DNA from: a virus
IMG/VR virus record: IMGVR_UViG_3300022204_000017
Location: 1-24,752 of that record
Direction: 5' to 3' (one strand)
DNA: 24,752 bases
The notes beneath the pieces were generated by a model. It did not search any database, was not told the DNA's origin, and worked only from the letters and a program-made list of their open reading frames with translations. A program made the translations under genes and the position numbers. Below are positions 3,943-8,485 of the stretch, piece by piece. Numbering within the stretch: position 1 is the stretch's first letter; each line of letters opens with the position of its first letter.

Positions 3943-4052
3943 AAATCAGGTCGGAAAGTAGTGCATGACTTCCCGATAATAATTAAAGTTTATCCTTCGG
4001 GATGAACAAACTAGGCCCTTTTGTGAGATGCACCTCATGAAGGGGCCTTTTT
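3943..4052 (+). ncRNA. structured leader or small RNA 1, terminated before the helicase gene
   Basis: From the expected start of P1 to the T-run of the terminator is about 110 bases. Three hairpins can be read. First, TCGG-AAGT pairs with ACTT-CCGA around an AGTGCATG loop (3951-3976). Second, GTTTATCC pairs with GGATGAAC around a TTCG tetraloop (3988-4007). Third is the terminator at 4013-4052. The region has no plausible ORF. The RNA shares CAGG-(T)-CGGAA and AAGTTTA-CC blocks and the same hairpin order with the second RNA at 6628-6744. It may be a free small RNA, an attenuator, or an antitermination leader. Confidence 0.6.
4013..4052 (+). terminator. intrinsic terminator upstream of the helicase gene
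   Basis: A 15-bp stem: AGGCCCTTTTGTGAG (4013-4027) pairs with CTCATGAAGGGGCCT (4034-4048), using three G-T pairs, around an ATGCAC loop. TTTTT follows at 4048-4052. It sits between promoter P1 and the ribosome-binding site GGAGGAGG (4058-4065) of the helicase, so P1 transcripts should mostly stop here unless terminator function is overcome. Confidence 0.8.
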
Positions 4053-4066
4053 ATATTGGAGGAGGT

Positions 4067-5440
4067 ATGGATAAATACAAACAATTTATTGCTAATAAAA
4101 AACATTCAATAGGCAATTTTGGATTTGATAGGTTATGGTTGCCTGAATGTGCGTTTGACTTTCAGGGTAATGTAATTGATCGGGCAATAAAAAAGGGGAG
4201 GATAGGAATATTTGCGGATACTGGATTAGGTAAAACATTGATTCAAATTACTATAGCTGAAAACATAATCAGGCATACAAATAAAAGAGTTTTGATATTA
4301 ACTCCCTTGGCGGTGGCTTTTCAGTTTATTGATGAAGCTCATCGAATAGGGGTAGATGATATAGAACATTCAAAAGATGGGAAGTTTACAAAAAAGATCG
4401 TAGTATGTAATTATGAAAGATTGCATTTATTAAATCCTAATGACTTTGAATGTGTGATGCTAGATGAGTCAAGCATATTAAAAAACTTTCAAGGCAGGAT
4501 AAAAGATCAGATAATAGCTTTTATCAAGAAAGTGCCTTATCGGTTTTTGAGTACTGCGACACCGAGCCCGAATGATTTTATTGAGCTTGGCAATAGTTCA
4601 GAGGCTTTGGGATATATGGGATATATGGATATGTTGAGCAAGTTCTTCAAATCTAATCAAGGATCTGCCGATAGTAATAACAGGAATATCGGAGAGAAGT
4701 TTTATCTCAAGCCTCATGCAGAACGTGACTTTTTCGCATGGGTAAACCAATGGTCTATAATGATTAAAAAGCCGTCTGATTTAGGATTCAGCAATGATGG
4801 CTATGATATCCCTAAATTGCATTCAAACAAGCATATTATAAGGAATGATAAACAATGGACAATCGACGGGCAGGCCGCTTTATTTGCTATGCCTGCAAAG
4901 ACCATAACGGAAGTTAGGGCAGAGCAGAAACTTACAATCAATGAAAGATGTGAAACTGCTGTAAACCTTGCTAAAGACAAGACATCTGTTTATTGGTGCA
5001 ATCTTAATGAGGAAAGCAAATTGTTGTCTGATTTAGACAATGAGGCGGTCGAAATAATAGGGGGAATGACTATTGAGAAAAAGGAAGATATACTTTTAGC
5101 GTTTGCCAGGGGGGACATAAAGAGAATTATAACTAAGGCAAGAATGACTTCGATGGGATTAAATTGGCAGCATTGCAACCATACGGTTTTTTTCCCTACA
5201 TATAGTTATGAGCAATTTTATCAAGCTATAAGGAGGTTTTGGAGGTTTGGCCAGAAGAGGGAAGTTACTTGCGATATTGTCATAAGTGATGGACAGTCTC
5301 GAGTGATACAGGCGCTTGAAGAAAAGACACAAAAAGCAATAGAGTTATATGAAAATCTTGTATCTCATGCGAATCAAGATTTTAATATGACTGTTAAGGA
5401 ATTTGACAAAAACATTCAATTACCGGAGTTTATATCATGA
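4067..5440 (+). CDS. SF2 (Snf2-like) DNA helicase, partner of the adjacent methyltransferase
   Basis: The 457-residue product starts at ATG 4067 after GGAGGAGG (4058-4065). The in-frame ATG at 4028 lies in the terminator loop and is rejected. Visible motifs: ADTGLGKT (50-57, Walker A), VMLDESS (130-136, motif II with DESS), LSTATP (161-166, motif III) and QAIRRFWRFGQKR (386-398, motif VI with the arginine finger region). This is the two-RecA-fold layout of SF2 ATPases. DES in motif II and RxWRxGQ in motif VI are typical of Snf2-like phage helicases. It overlaps the methyltransferase gene by four bases (ATGA), so the two should be made together. Such pairs occur in phages and echo type III restriction-modification layouts, but no nuclease domain is present here. 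Confidence 0.9.
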   Translation: MDKYKQFIANKKHSIGNFGFDRLWLPECAFDFQGNVIDRAIKKGRIGIFADTGLGKTLIQITIAENIIRHTNKRVLILTPLAVAFQFIDEAHRIGVDDIEHSKDGKFTKKIVVCNYERLHLLNPNDFECVMLDESSILKNFQGRIKDQIIAFIKKVPYRFLSTATPSPNDFIELGNSSEALGYMGYMDMLSKFFKSNQGSADSNNRNIGEKFYLKPHAERDFFAWVNQWSIMIKKPSDLGFSNDGYDIPKLHSNKHIIRNDKQWTIDGQAALFAMPAKTITEVRAEQKLTINERCETAVNLAKDKTSVYWCNLNEESKLLSDLDNEAVEIIGGMTIEKKEDILLAFARGDIKRIITKARMTSMGLNWQHCNHTVFFPTYSYEQFYQAIRRFWRFGQKREVTCDIVISDGQSRVIQALEEKTQKAIELYENLVSHANQDFNMTVKEFDKNIQLPEFIS

Positions 5441-6459
5441 AAACAAAAGACCAGATAATAGAAAAAGATTATGCCCTGTACAATAGCGATTGCATGGAAG
5501 TATTGCCAAGCTTGGCCGATGAGTCTATTGATTTGTCAATATATAGCCCACCTTTCGCGGGGCTTTATAATTACTCGAGCAGTGAAAGGGATTTCAGCAA
5601 CTGCGAAAATAAAGAACAGTTTTTAGATCAATATGATTTCCTTATAAGTGAAATGGCTCGAGTAACAAAGGCCGGACGGATAACGGCTGTTCATTGTACA
5701 GATGTTTTTGATAATTCATGTTATCTTTGGGATTTCCCCCATGAGATTATTCGTATACATGAAAAGTATGGTTTCCAGTATCGGAATAGAATAACAATAT
5801 GGAAAGAGCCGCTAAAGGTTAGAATGAGGACAATGGTCAAAAGTCTTATGCACAAGTTGATAGTTGAAGATTCAACTCAATGTTTTACGGCCATGCCTGA
5901 TTACGTGTTAATCTTTACAAAAAAAGGCGAAAACAAAGTGCCGGTAACTCATCCTCATGGCTTTAAATATTATGCCGGTGATATCCCTATTTTGCCGAAT
6001 ATATTAAATGCCTGGAATAATGCTAACAACTGCAAATTGAATGCAGAAGAGTTATGGGACCATCTGAAAAACTCGTATTCAGATCATACGGACCCAAAAT
6101 CAAATAAACTATCTCACTATATCTGGCAAAGGTACGCTTCAAGCGTTTGGGATGATATCAGGATAGATAATGTTTTACCTTTCAGGGATGGTAAGGAAGA
6201 GGACGACGAGAAGCACGTACACCCTTTGCAGCTTGATGTAATTGATAGGCTGGTAGACTTGTATAGTAATAGGGGAGAAGTCGTTTTGACGCCATTTATG
6301 GGAGTAGGTTCGGAAGTTTATAGCCCTGTCTCTATGGGTAGAAAAGGATTAGGGATTGAGCTTAAAGATTCCTATTTTAAACAGGCTAAAATCAATTTGA
6401 AACTGGCCGCTTCTCGATTTGATAATGACGATACTTTAAAGCAAAAGAGTCTATTATGA
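5437..6459 (+). CDS. site-specific DNA methyltransferase (beta-class, N6-adenine or N4-cytosine)
   Basis: The product has 340 residues. It starts within the stop of the helicase gene (ATGA overlap). The catalytic motif IV is IDLSIYSPPF (31-40), followed by an aromatic-rich target region. The AdoMet-binding motif I is at the C-terminal end (VVLTPFMGVGSEVYS, about 282-296), followed by GRKGLGIEL (motif II-like acidic residue). Motif IV before motif I is the beta-class order. SPPF is compatible with either N4-cytosine or N6-adenine methylation. Length is normal for the N4/N6_Mtase family and nothing essential looks missing. Likely role: marking phage DNA against host restriction or, with the helicase, a modification system. 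Confidence 0.92.
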   Translation: MKTKDQIIEKDYALYNSDCMEVLPSLADESIDLSIYSPPFAGLYNYSSSERDFSNCENKEQFLDQYDFLISEMARVTKAGRITAVHCTDVFDNSCYLWDFPHEIIRIHEKYGFQYRNRITIWKEPLKVRMRTMVKSLMHKLIVEDSTQCFTAMPDYVLIFTKKGENKVPVTHPHGFKYYAGDIPILPNILNAWNNANNCKLNAEELWDHLKNSYSDHTDPKSNKLSHYIWQRYASSVWDDIRIDNVLPFRDGKEEDDEKHVHPLQLDVIDRLVDLYSNRGEVVLTPFMGVGSEVYSPVSMGRKGLGIELKDSYFKQAKINLKLAASRFDNDDTLKQKSLL

Positions 6460-6610
6460 TTGAAAGCGAGGATGCCTTGTAAGACGTTCGGGGGGTGTTG
6501 GCCTTGCGTTACCTAAGATTCCAATAAAAGAGGGCCAGCCGGAAGAGTATCAGATTGCATTGAAAATAATTAAAGAAGTGGAAAGAATAAAGTTGACAAT
6601 TAAGGCATGA
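6456..6610 (+). pseudogene. broken small ORF after the methyltransferase gene
   Basis: An ATG overlapping the methyltransferase stop (ATGA, 6456) encodes only MIESEDAL before TAA at 6480-6482. In another frame, bases 6464-6610 are open and encode a protein-like sequence, SGGVGLALPKIPIKEGQPEE followed by an amphipathic helix ending KEVERIKLTIKA. That frame has no start codon near its beginning. A run of six G (6490-6495) lies at the junction. The simplest reading is a small coupled gene disrupted by an indel, or the tail of a gene truncated when the methyltransferase was acquired. Promoter P2 overlaps its end. Confidence 0.5.
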
Positions 6611-6621
6611 TAGAGTACAAT
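6593..6621 (+). promoter_or_regulatory. sigma70-like promoter P2
   Basis: TTGACA (6593-6598), a 17-base spacer and TACAAT (6616-6621), the strongest -35/-10 combination in the window. It sits at the end of the broken ORF and drives the structured RNA at 6628-6744 and the replication operon beyond. Confidence 0.75.
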
Positions 6622-6627
6622 TATTGA

Positions 6628-6744
6628 ATTATAGAAGTTCACAGGCGGAATGGGTCTGAAATAGAACATAGAAGTTTACCCCGACAAGGGTTAAACCTAA
6701 AACCTCCCCTCAAAGGCCATTCCCCTTTGTTGTGGAGGTTTTTT
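6628..6744 (+). ncRNA. structured leader or small RNA 2, upstream of the replication operon
   Basis: About 117 bases from the expected start of P2 to the terminator T-run, with no credible ORF. Readable hairpins are CAGGC with GTCTG (6642-6658, one G-T), GTTTA-CCC with GGG-TAAAC (6674-6696), and the terminator at 6699-6744. Blocks CAGGCGGAA and AAGTTTACC correspond to CAGGTCGGAA and AAGTTTATCC in RNA 1. Both RNAs are placed between a promoter and the first gene of an operon. The role is unknown. Most of the otherwise empty stretch 6460-6759 is accounted for by the broken ORF, promoter and this RNA. Confidence 0.6.
6699..6744 (+). terminator. intrinsic terminator upstream of the replication operon
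   Basis: AAAACCTCC (6699-6707) pairs with GGAGGTTTT (6734-6742). CAAAGG (6711-6716) pairs with CCTTTG (6724-6729) inside it, and a T-run spans 6739-6744. It lies between promoter P2 and the next start codon at 6760. Confidence 0.78.
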
Positions 6745-6759
6745 ATTTAAGAGGTTATT

Positions 6760-6930
6760 ATGGAAAAATTAAAAGAAATTAAATGCGAAATATTGTTAGA
6801 TATTGGAGTTAATGATGCAGATATTAAAAATATAAAAAAGGCAATATCTATGATAAAAGGTGTTTATGTTATTTGCCATATTCATAAAAAAGAAAAAGAG
6901 ATTTTATGTACATGTAACAGGATTAGGTAA
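6760..6930 (+). CDS. small hypothetical protein
   Basis: A 56-residue product with ATG at 6760 after AAGAGG (6749-6754). The TAA stop shares its last base with the next ATG (TAATG), which supports real translation. It is Lys/Ile-rich: MEKLKEIKCEILLDIGVND, then a helix (ADIKNIKKAISMIKG), a strand (VYVICHIHKKEKEIL), and a short CTCNRIR end. Three Cys and two His (VICHIHKKE, CTC) could bind a metal, but the spacing is not a recognised motif. As the first gene after the leader RNA and terminator it heads the replication operon. Confidence 0.7.
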   Translation: MEKLKEIKCEILLDIGVNDADIKNIKKAISMIKGVYVICHIHKKEKEILCTCNRIR

Positions 6931-7769
6931 TGATTGGTTGGATTAAACTCCATAGAAAGCTTCTTATATCAGATATGTATCAAGACCTTAATGCTGTCCA
7001 GCGTGATGTATTATTGCAATGCCTACTTGCCGCTAATCATAAGCCTAAAAAATGGGAGTGGCAGGGTAAGATATTTGAATGTAAAGCAGGGCAATTTATC
7101 ACGTCATTAGACTCATTAATTAAGCTTTGTTCAAAAGGCACTTCAATTAGGAATGTAAGAACCGCTCTAGTCAAATTAGAAAAGTGGCAATTTTTGACAA
7201 ACGAATCGACAAAGACCGGAAGGCTAATAACTGTAATAAATTGGGACACTTACCAGAATTGTGATGAAGCGACTGACAAAGCTACTGACAAAGAAGCGAC
7301 AAAGAGCCGACAAAGCACTGACAAAGAGCCGACAACTAACAAGAATGTAAAGAAAGATAAGAATGAAAAGAAAGAAGATAAAACCTTTATGTCCGACTCT
7401 GAAGAGATCAGACTTGTTGATTATTTCATATCTCAAATTAAGATTAATAAACCTGACTTCAAAGAACCTAATAAACAAACTTGGGCTAAAATATTCGATT
7501 TGATGCTTAGACTCGATAAGAGACAACCGAGAGATATTGCCGAATTAATCAAGTGGTGCCAAAACGATTCTTTTGAGATGTCAAATGTTTTAAGTCCTGA
7601 TAAACTCAGGAAGAGATTTGACCAACTTATGATGAAAACCAAAAGAAAGCCATCTACAATAGGGATGAGTAGAACAGAAAAGAATACAGCCGCTAAAGAA
7701 GAGTTTTTAAGAAAGAATGGTATTTATGAAAAAGATATAACGCCAGAAATTAAAACACTGGAGGCATAA
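6930..7769 (+). CDS. replication initiator / replisome organiser-like protein
   Basis: The product has 279 residues. The N terminus, GWIKLHRKLLISDMYQD followed by a winged-helix-like domain to about residue 109 (KWQFLTNESTKTGRLITVINWDTY), is the pattern of phage replisome organisers of the lambda O / DnaD-like type. These bind the origin and recruit the helicase loader. A flexible, Lys/Thr/Asp-rich linker (about 112-152) follows, then a helical C-terminal domain (about 155-279) for partner binding. The linker DNA carries tandem GACAAAG iterons, as the lambda O gene carries its own origin. The gene is coupled to both neighbours by 1-base overlaps. The exact family is not certain. Confidence 0.75.
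   Translation: MIGWIKLHRKLLISDMYQDLNAVQRDVLLQCLLAANHKPKKWEWQGKIFECKAGQFITSLDSLIKLCSKGTSIRNVRTALVKLEKWQFLTNESTKTGRLITVINWDTYQNCDEATDKATDKEATKSRQSTDKEPTTNKNVKKDKNEKKEDKTFMSDSEEIRLVDYFISQIKINKPDFKEPNKQTWAKIFDLMLRLDKRQPRDIAELIKWCQNDSFEMSNVLSPDKLRKRFDQLMMKTKRKPSTIGMSRTEKNTAAKEEFLRKNGIYEKDITPEIKTLEA
7196..7383 (+). other. candidate intragenic replication origin: iterons plus purine-rich AT-rich tract
   Basis: GACAAAG or a close variant occurs at 7196 (GACAAAC), 7208, 7275, 7287, 7298, 7309, 7320 and 7331 (GACAACT). Intervals are 12, 67, 12, 11, 11, 11 and 11 bases. The repeats fall in all three codon frames of the organiser gene, so the DNA is conserved while the peptide is not. They are followed at 7341-7383 by a tract with no C, 38 of 43 purines and about 79% A+T, which would unwind easily. 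Iterons inside the initiator gene followed by a purine-rich tract is the lambda ori layout. Confidence 0.65.
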
Positions 7770-8485
7770 TGAAAGAATCAGATTTAAGAGAATTTACTGG
7801 AATAATGGATGACCTTGCCGAAATGTTAGGTGGTGATATGAGTCCAAGGAAGTATGAATTATATTTTGCTGCTTTATTTGATTTAGATATTGCAGATTTA
7901 AGGAAAGCTGGGAATTATATTGCAAACACGGCAACCTTCTTCCCAAAGCCTATAGACTTTAGAAACGCAATAAACGGGAACCAAGACGAGGCCGCAATAA
8001 TAGCTTGGGAGAAAGTACAGAAAGGAAAATCAAAGGCCGGTCAATATCAGTCTGTTAAATTTGATGATCCTGTTATCCATACCGTGATAAAGTTAATGGG
8101 TGGATGGGGGGCGGTATGTAGATTAGAGGGGCATGACGACGAGAAGTGGCAGAGAATCGAATTTGAGAAGACATACAAGGCAATACAAGGGTCTAATAAA
8201 GATCATCCCGAATATCTGCCAGGGATAGCCGATGTAGAGAATGAGGCAAGAGGTCTAGAATATAAAAAACCAATTATTATAATTACGTCACAACCAGAGA
8301 AGAAGGCATTGCCTCCAATAGAGAGAAAAGAATTGCCAAAGGTAGGCAATGTTTTAAGTAGGAAAGAAATAGAAGAGAGGATGAAAGAATTAGATTTTGA
8401 AACAAGGAAAGTAATTGAGACGGCTTTGGGAGAGTCACAGGAAGAGGAAAGCTTAAAGAAAATAGGAATGTGTAAGGAGAAATGA
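7769..8485 (+). CDS. probable replication partner / helicase-loader-like phage protein (DUF6475-like)
   Basis: The product has 238 residues. ATG 7769 shares a base with the stop of the organiser gene, and GGAGG lies upstream at 7760-7764. The N-terminal 70 residues are helical (FTGIMDDLAEMLGGDMSPRK, YELYFAALFDLDIADLRKAG, then FFPKPIDFRNAI). I recall this layout from a phage family of unknown structure (DUF6475) found directly after winged-helix initiators. The middle part contains KLMGGWGAVCRLEGHDDEKW and a helix to about 155. The C terminus is charged and probably flexible. Position suggests it loads or regulates the replicative helicase. No Walker A motif is visible, so it is not a DnaC-type ATPase. 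Confidence 0.65.
   Translation: MKESDLREFTGIMDDLAEMLGGDMSPRKYELYFAALFDLDIADLRKAGNYIANTATFFPKPIDFRNAINGNQDEAAIIAWEKVQKGKSKAGQYQSVKFDDPVIHTVIKLMGGWGAVCRLEGHDDEKWQRIEFEKTYKAIQGSNKDHPEYLPGIADVENEARGLEYKKPIIIITSQPEKKALPPIERKELPKVGNVLSRKEIEERMKELDFETRKVIETALGESQEEESLKKIGMCKEK

Follow-up and report, generated by a model that had tools for sequence, protein, structure and literature searches.

The window analysed here, a viral record of 24,752 bases, holds all its iterons inside one plus-strand open reading frame (6930-7769), whose product has 279 residues. In profile searches, PHROG 2514 ("DnaD-like helicase loader") matches residues 1-258 of this protein (E 1.1e-59), and PHROG 391 ("replication initiation O-like") matches residues 72-253 (E 2.7e-21). 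An AlphaFold2 model with a mean pLDDT of 81.8 predicts a winged helix, a low-confidence linker at residues 114-144 and a helical C-terminal domain. The locus comprises the following features, with their basis in brackets:

6930..7769, plus strand: initiator gene; N-terminal winged helix (aa 1-112), disordered linker (aa 113-150) and O-like helical C-terminal domain (PHROG 2514, PHROG 391, structure model)
7146..7184, plus strand: recognition helix codons, aa 73-85 (structure model)
7149-7151, plus strand: codon 74 (AGG, Arg), the residue predicting unit bases 1-2 (unit/helix covariation)
7194..7235, plus strand: wing hairpin codons, strands aa 89-93 and 98-102 (structure model)
7196..7202, plus strand: wing iteron 1, GACAAAC (exact match)
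7208..7214, plus strand: wing iteron 2, GACAAAG, 12 bp from wing iteron 1 (exact match)
7275..7337, plus strand: linker array of six iterons, spacing 12 and then 11 bp (exact matches)
7338..7383, plus strand: A-rich tract with AAGAATG-type repeats, candidate unwinding element (composition, codon bias)
7769..8485, plus strand: next gene, PHROG 10105, DUF6475 (profile match)

The N-terminal domain is 43-53% identical to those of Bacillus phages Palmer and Pookie, Listeria phages and Lactobacillus phage iLp1308. The C-terminal domain resembles replication proteins of lambdoid, Vibrio and B. subtilis phages, and it also matched Escherichia phages. Because the two domains resemble different phages, the initiator gene is a mosaic. 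Phage_rep_O (PF04492) scored 13.8 bits with the N-terminal domain, below its cut-off of 28.7; the protein has no match to the DnaD domain TIGR01446 and none to RepA_N up to an E-value of 0.1. Searches of PDB sequences and with Foldseek returned only a generic winged helix. The top Foldseek match, TubR, was rejected and not used as evidence because its E-value is only 0.07. The best structural superposition of the N-terminal domain is with the DNA-binding domain of CAP/CRP (Z 8.6, 69 residues, rmsd 1.8). A Z of this size can reflect merely the common winged-helix arrangement, and the likeness is one of fold only, CAP/CRP being a transcription factor, unlike the window's initiator. An alignment by eye gives the idea that residue 74 corresponds to Glu181 of CAP.

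The motif GACAA starts exactly at 7196, 7208, 7275, 7287, 7298, 7309, 7320 and 7331, with start-to-start spacings of 12, 67, 12, 11, 11, 11 and 11 bp. The initial annotation had placed six tandem GACAAAG-type units and two further copies at just these positions. Seven of the eight units read GACAAA and the one at 7331 reads GACAAC; there is no other GACAAA in the frame and none in the upstream region 6460-6929. The longer motif YGACAAAG occurs eight times in the whole window, six of them in the iteron region of 6930-7769, against 1.4 expected, and none of 100 shuffles reached eight. The array (7275-7337) encodes the protein linker, its units passing through the reading frames as TDK, TDK, ATK, RQS, TDK and PTT, as first read. 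The two upstream copies lie in codons of the first wing strand and turn region: the one at 7196 spans the third base of Leu89 to Asn91, the one at 7208 the third base of Ser93 to Lys95. They precede the array by 67 bp and are approximately in phase with it. The tract that directly follows the array is C-free, as had been described, and A-rich; its 43 bases (7341-7383) comprise 29 A, 9 G and 5 T, and encode a Lys/Asn/Asp/Glu-rich stretch, KNVKKDKNEKKEDK. No inverted repeats were found in 7000-7600. GC skew, which had been suggested as a check on the origin, is positive throughout the window and uninformative on this point.

Selection acts on these repeats as DNA, as had been proposed. In synonymous recodings, in which the protein was kept fixed and the codons were redrawn from the gene's own usage, the five GACAAAG of the array region (7258-7341) were reached in none of 20,000 trials, and the two GACAAA of the wing codons in 17 of 20,000. 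The same holds across the family. From 284 collected relatives, 152 were retained after dropping N-terminal domains more than 80% identical. The DNA just 3' of their N-terminal domain matches itself at a lag of 11 with a peak of 0.51, compared with 0.39 for synonymous recodings and 0.28 for a control region, and further peaks above the recodings follow at lags 22, 33 and 44. Unit spacings of 11 bp (326) and 12 bp (86) dominate. Family-wide, the first interval of an array is 12 bp in 62 cases versus 11 bp in 42, and the later intervals are 11 bp in 268 versus 12 bp in 21. The 12-bp interval is thus common at the array start, and it also separates the two wing copies (7275-7287 and 7196-7208 in the window). 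The units are spread about equally over the three reading frames (265/209/226). According to automatic motif calls, the unit itself varies widely between phages: GACAAAG, AACAAGC, GGCAAAG, TGTCCATC, AACCAAC, CGACAACAAAT and others. In the tract, Lys is written AAG in 77% of cases versus 33% elsewhere, and Asp is written GAT in 96% versus 66%; because its codon bias differs in this way, the tract is shaped as DNA as well.

The check on whether different units are matched to different N-terminal domains was positive: the unit follows the recognition helix. The window's clade supplied 46 non-redundant N-terminal domains. The 36 accompanied by AACAA arrays all have Gln at residue 74, and the 10 accompanied by G arrays (GACAA or GGCAA) all have Arg or Lys there. 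Arg74 pairs with GA (8 genes) and Lys74 with GG (3 genes, iLp1308 included). The comparison was extended to clades with the same helix type, the units being derived automatically from the arrays alone. The resulting rule fits 55 of 62 genes (Gln to AA 35/37, Arg to GA 10/14, Lys to GG 10/11); in three of the four exceptions with Arg, the unit reads AGCGACC, which is GACC in a shifted register. After thinning to below 60% identity, the rule fits 22 of 23 genes. Helix column 74 is where the mutual information with unit base 1 concentrates; in the two larger sets it exceeds shuffles by 0.62-0.85 bit. Column 75 informs unit base 4 more weakly. With the rule fixed beforehand, held-out genes were fetched from about 790 genomes, together with one contig found by DNA pattern, and all 15 obeyed it (13 Gln, 1 Arg, 1 Lys). 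A search with a GACAA pattern had yielded the Arg contig, and because a constant guess of AA would score 13, this set tests Arg and Lys once each. The rule also holds for three further relatives from plasmid records, of which one is close to a gene used before; clades with Ser74, Gly74 or Thr74 do not yet follow a simple rule. Gln-adenine and Arg-guanine are standard pairings in protein-DNA recognition. This covariation is the strongest evidence that the initiator would bind the repeats.

The copies at 7196 and 7208 are indeed present, but the view of them as stray, outlying units did not stand, since the pair is an integral feature of the family. The N-terminal domain of each relative was cut into 16-codon tiles, which were scored against the array of the same gene and against those of all others. 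For wing tiles the mean percentile of the match to the own array is 0.84-0.85, and for tiles wholly upstream of the wing 0.48-0.56. The wing peak persists after thinning to 60, 50, 45 and 40% identity (0.86 down to 0.79). Against its own synonymous recodings, the wing reaches a mean percentile of 0.89, and upstream control tiles 0.47-0.57. With reverse-complemented arrays the match disappears, so that it holds in direct orientation only. Silent positions take part in the agreement. In the window's clade, the third base of the wing Leu codon is G in 10 of 10 G-array genes versus 1 of 36 A-array genes (Fisher 2.7e-9), and the wing Ser-type codon gives the same counts (10/10 versus 1/36, Fisher 2.7e-9). 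GC3 bias as the cause of this covariation was rejected, as the window's other Leu and Ser codons have G at the third base in just 8%. The tree requires six array changes, three of them forced by well-supported branches; of these three changes, Leu accompanies 3/3 and Ser 2/3, numbers too few for significance by this strict test. Amino acids vary with the unit as well: all 6 genes with G at unit position 5 also have G (Asp) as the first base of codon 91, versus 1 of 56 others, and iLp1308 and locus L206, with GGCAAA-type units, have Thr-to-Ala at both wing positions. The agreement between wing and array is usually confined to a core of 6-7 bp, and the spacer bases differ. In the main family, wing-to-array distances cluster at 66-68 and 78-79, near multiples of 11, a clustering to which shared ancestry may contribute. 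A second initiator family (L026 type), whose arrays are weaker, gave no clear wing coupling signal; its member L388 has 11-bp linker repeats, e.g. CCAATGGACAA, with undetectable wing copies.

Two loci nearest to the window by their downstream gene, L463 and L464, hold unrelated initiators in the slot 6748-7754. From 7755 on, L463 matches the window at 97.3% identity, and at 6465-6747 at 84.5%; nothing matches in between, and the L463 initiator is of a different type (PHROG 2562); one gene has thus replaced the other. Because the flanks are near-identical and the initiators unlike, initiator and origin were apparently exchanged as a block, and the slot reads as a recent cassette swap. L464, related through the window's next gene (74% protein identity), has a different winged helix in an initiator protein without a PHROG match. 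Its GGAC units start at 1490, 1501, 1512, 1523 and 1534, in codons that by sequence pattern are putatively those of the wing, and at 1578, 1589, 1600, 1611 and 1623 in the linker. By hand-counted positions, these ten units form one 11-bp lattice with a 44-bp gap, the final unit being 1 bp off.

A non-coding remnant of a related initiator was observed in Porphyromonas phage005b (L468:30197-30383) and also in L470 and L479. Of the initiator gene, this remnant retains three elements only: the wing iterons, which read TTGACAAACGAATCGACAAAG, an array of GACAAAC units, and the AAGAATG tract. Its copies differ by one 11-bp unit. The remnant may be a solo origin like SPP1 oriR, or no more than a pseudogene of recent date. 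It sits at the edge of a reverse-strand gene block (L468:23730-30464) that has its own integrase and anti-repressor amid prophage structural genes and looks like an element inserted into the Porphyromonas prophage. Most matches to the pattern TGACAAACGACTGACAA outside initiators (among L469-L482) look like chance.

Upstream of the initiator gene, the window carries a promoter-like TTGACA-17-TACAAT (6593-6621), after which a structured stretch runs to a hairpin and U-run (6593-6747, fold z -2.3). The stretch is 85% identical in L463, has no match in Rfam and is possibly a small RNA or attenuator. Further upstream (4028-6459), a helicase frame and an N6/N4 methyltransferase frame have a few bases in common. 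PHROG 16, annotated as DNA helicase, matches each of them, which gives the impression of a split fusion gene.

Intragenic iteron origins are an established kind, and the window, with phased direct repeats in an initiator gene beside an AT-rich tract, fits their layout. The closest parallels are relatives in PHROG 2514. Phages Palmer and Pookie and Listeria phage vB_LmoS_188, with N-terminal domains 43-53% identical to that of the window, share its arrangement of wing iterons, 11-bp array and A-rich tract, and Lactobacillus phage iLp1308 has the same type of N-terminal domain in a shortened gene. The unit of these relatives is AACAA or GGCAA, compared with GACAA in the window. Their C-terminal modules differ, Palmer and Listeria phage LM 4-11-1 having the DnaD domain (TIGR01446) that the window lacks. 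Phage lambda has its origin within gene O (PMC7466680). The comparison with ori lambda made at the outset stands for the iterons and the AT-rich tract behind them, midway along an initiator gene, and the C-terminal domains are related too. The likeness does not extend to the N-terminal domain, which is not assignable to Phage_rep_O, to the iterons, which in lambda are 18-bp palindromes and in the window 11-bp direct, non-palindromic units, or to the wing copies, for which lambda O was tested and gave none.

In SPP1, oriL consists of direct repeats and an AT-rich unwinding element in gene 38, bound by G38P, and a separate second origin, oriR, is similarly organised (PMC6316719). By this published description, G38P and oriL resemble the window in having intragenic repeats beside an AT-rich element. 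In plasmid pSK41, the Rep boxes lie in the middle of the rep gene and are bound by the winged-helix N-terminal domain of Rep; the protein has a dispensable linker as its central part, and its domains are structurally similar to DnaD (PMC5703833). It differs in being a plasmid system with four Rep boxes and a RepA_N protein, a family that the window does not match. In pPR9, the N-terminal domain and origin were exchanged as a block (PMC5703833), which the exchange between the window and L463 resembles; among plasmids, pPR9 was not found as a relative of the window's initiator.

Taken together, the 11-bp period, the codon bias of the tract and the covariation of unit and helix support the original proposal of an iteron origin inside the replication gene. 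It is highly probable that the frame 6930-7769 holds an intragenic replication origin bound by its own initiator, the sites in the wing codons included. As its covariation with the unit suggests, the N-terminal winged helix would bind the non-palindromic iterons that recur with an 11-bp phase where its own gene encodes the linker, and the bound domains would all lie along the same face of the DNA. In the recognition helix, residue 74 would read the first two bases of the unit (GA in the case of Arg), and the winged helix would also bind the two iterons in the codons of its own wing hairpin. From the position of the elements and from lambda, SPP1 oriL and pSK41, we infer that the locus acts as an origin, in which the nucleoprotein complex would open the adjacent A-rich tract and the C-terminal domain would recruit a helicase or loader. 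The latter is perhaps the product of 7769-8485, a possible helicase loader judging by its position; in relatives, the initiator gene adjoins DnaC or helicase genes. The wing is likely dual-coded, its codons serving as origin iterons for the protein that they encode, with wing, array and residue 74 evolving as a block under the code Gln AA, Arg GA, Lys GG. Under such a code, iteron specificity should be predictable from the protein sequence.

The repeats might instead reflect a TDK/TNK-rich linker selected as a flexible peptide, with an incidental DNA periodicity, in keeping with its predicted disorder and low complexity. However, 11 bp is no multiple of a codon, the units use all three frames, the array is lost in synonymous recodings and the recognition helix predicts the unit sequence; this explanation is extremely improbable. 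The sites could also be operators, through which the initiator only regulates transcription or brakes copy number while replication starts elsewhere. Binding within its own gene would then produce the same covariation of helix and unit, and the promoter-like site at 6593-6621 is a strong one. Yet GACAAA is absent upstream (6460-6929), and the sites lie within the coding region, beside an A-rich tract that is conserved and has a codon bias of its own, in the layout of lambda and SPP1 oriL, which makes a purely regulatory role quite unlikely.

A further possibility accepts the array as a real binding site and regards the wing copies as non-functional by-products that short gene conversion or copying driven by repeats keeps like the array. 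Homogenisation is possible among repeats of the same gene, and in L347 the wing and array have a longer exact stretch, AAATCGACCAGCAAAA, in common. In most genes, however, only the short core agrees and the spacers differ; moreover, the wing protein remains intact, the silent third bases agree, and the wing and linker units of L464 share one lattice. Copying is therefore rather doubtful as the source of the wing iterons, and both it and the operator-only explanation are less well supported than an origin bound by its own initiator.

The open-access literature contains intragenic phage and plasmid origins, and the search of it found no wing-encoded iterons, no large phage family in which one helix residue predicts iteron bases and no such conservation at silent codon positions, although this does not prove their absence. 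With an origin of this kind, many unannotated phage "DnaD-like" genes would become mapped candidate origins with predictable specificity. The covariation would represent a natural protein-DNA recognition code, open to single-substitution tests, and the wing a DNA-binding element constrained simultaneously as protein and as binding site. The findings also suggest that the replication specificity of a phage may be exchanged in one step, the initiator domain and its sites moving as a block.
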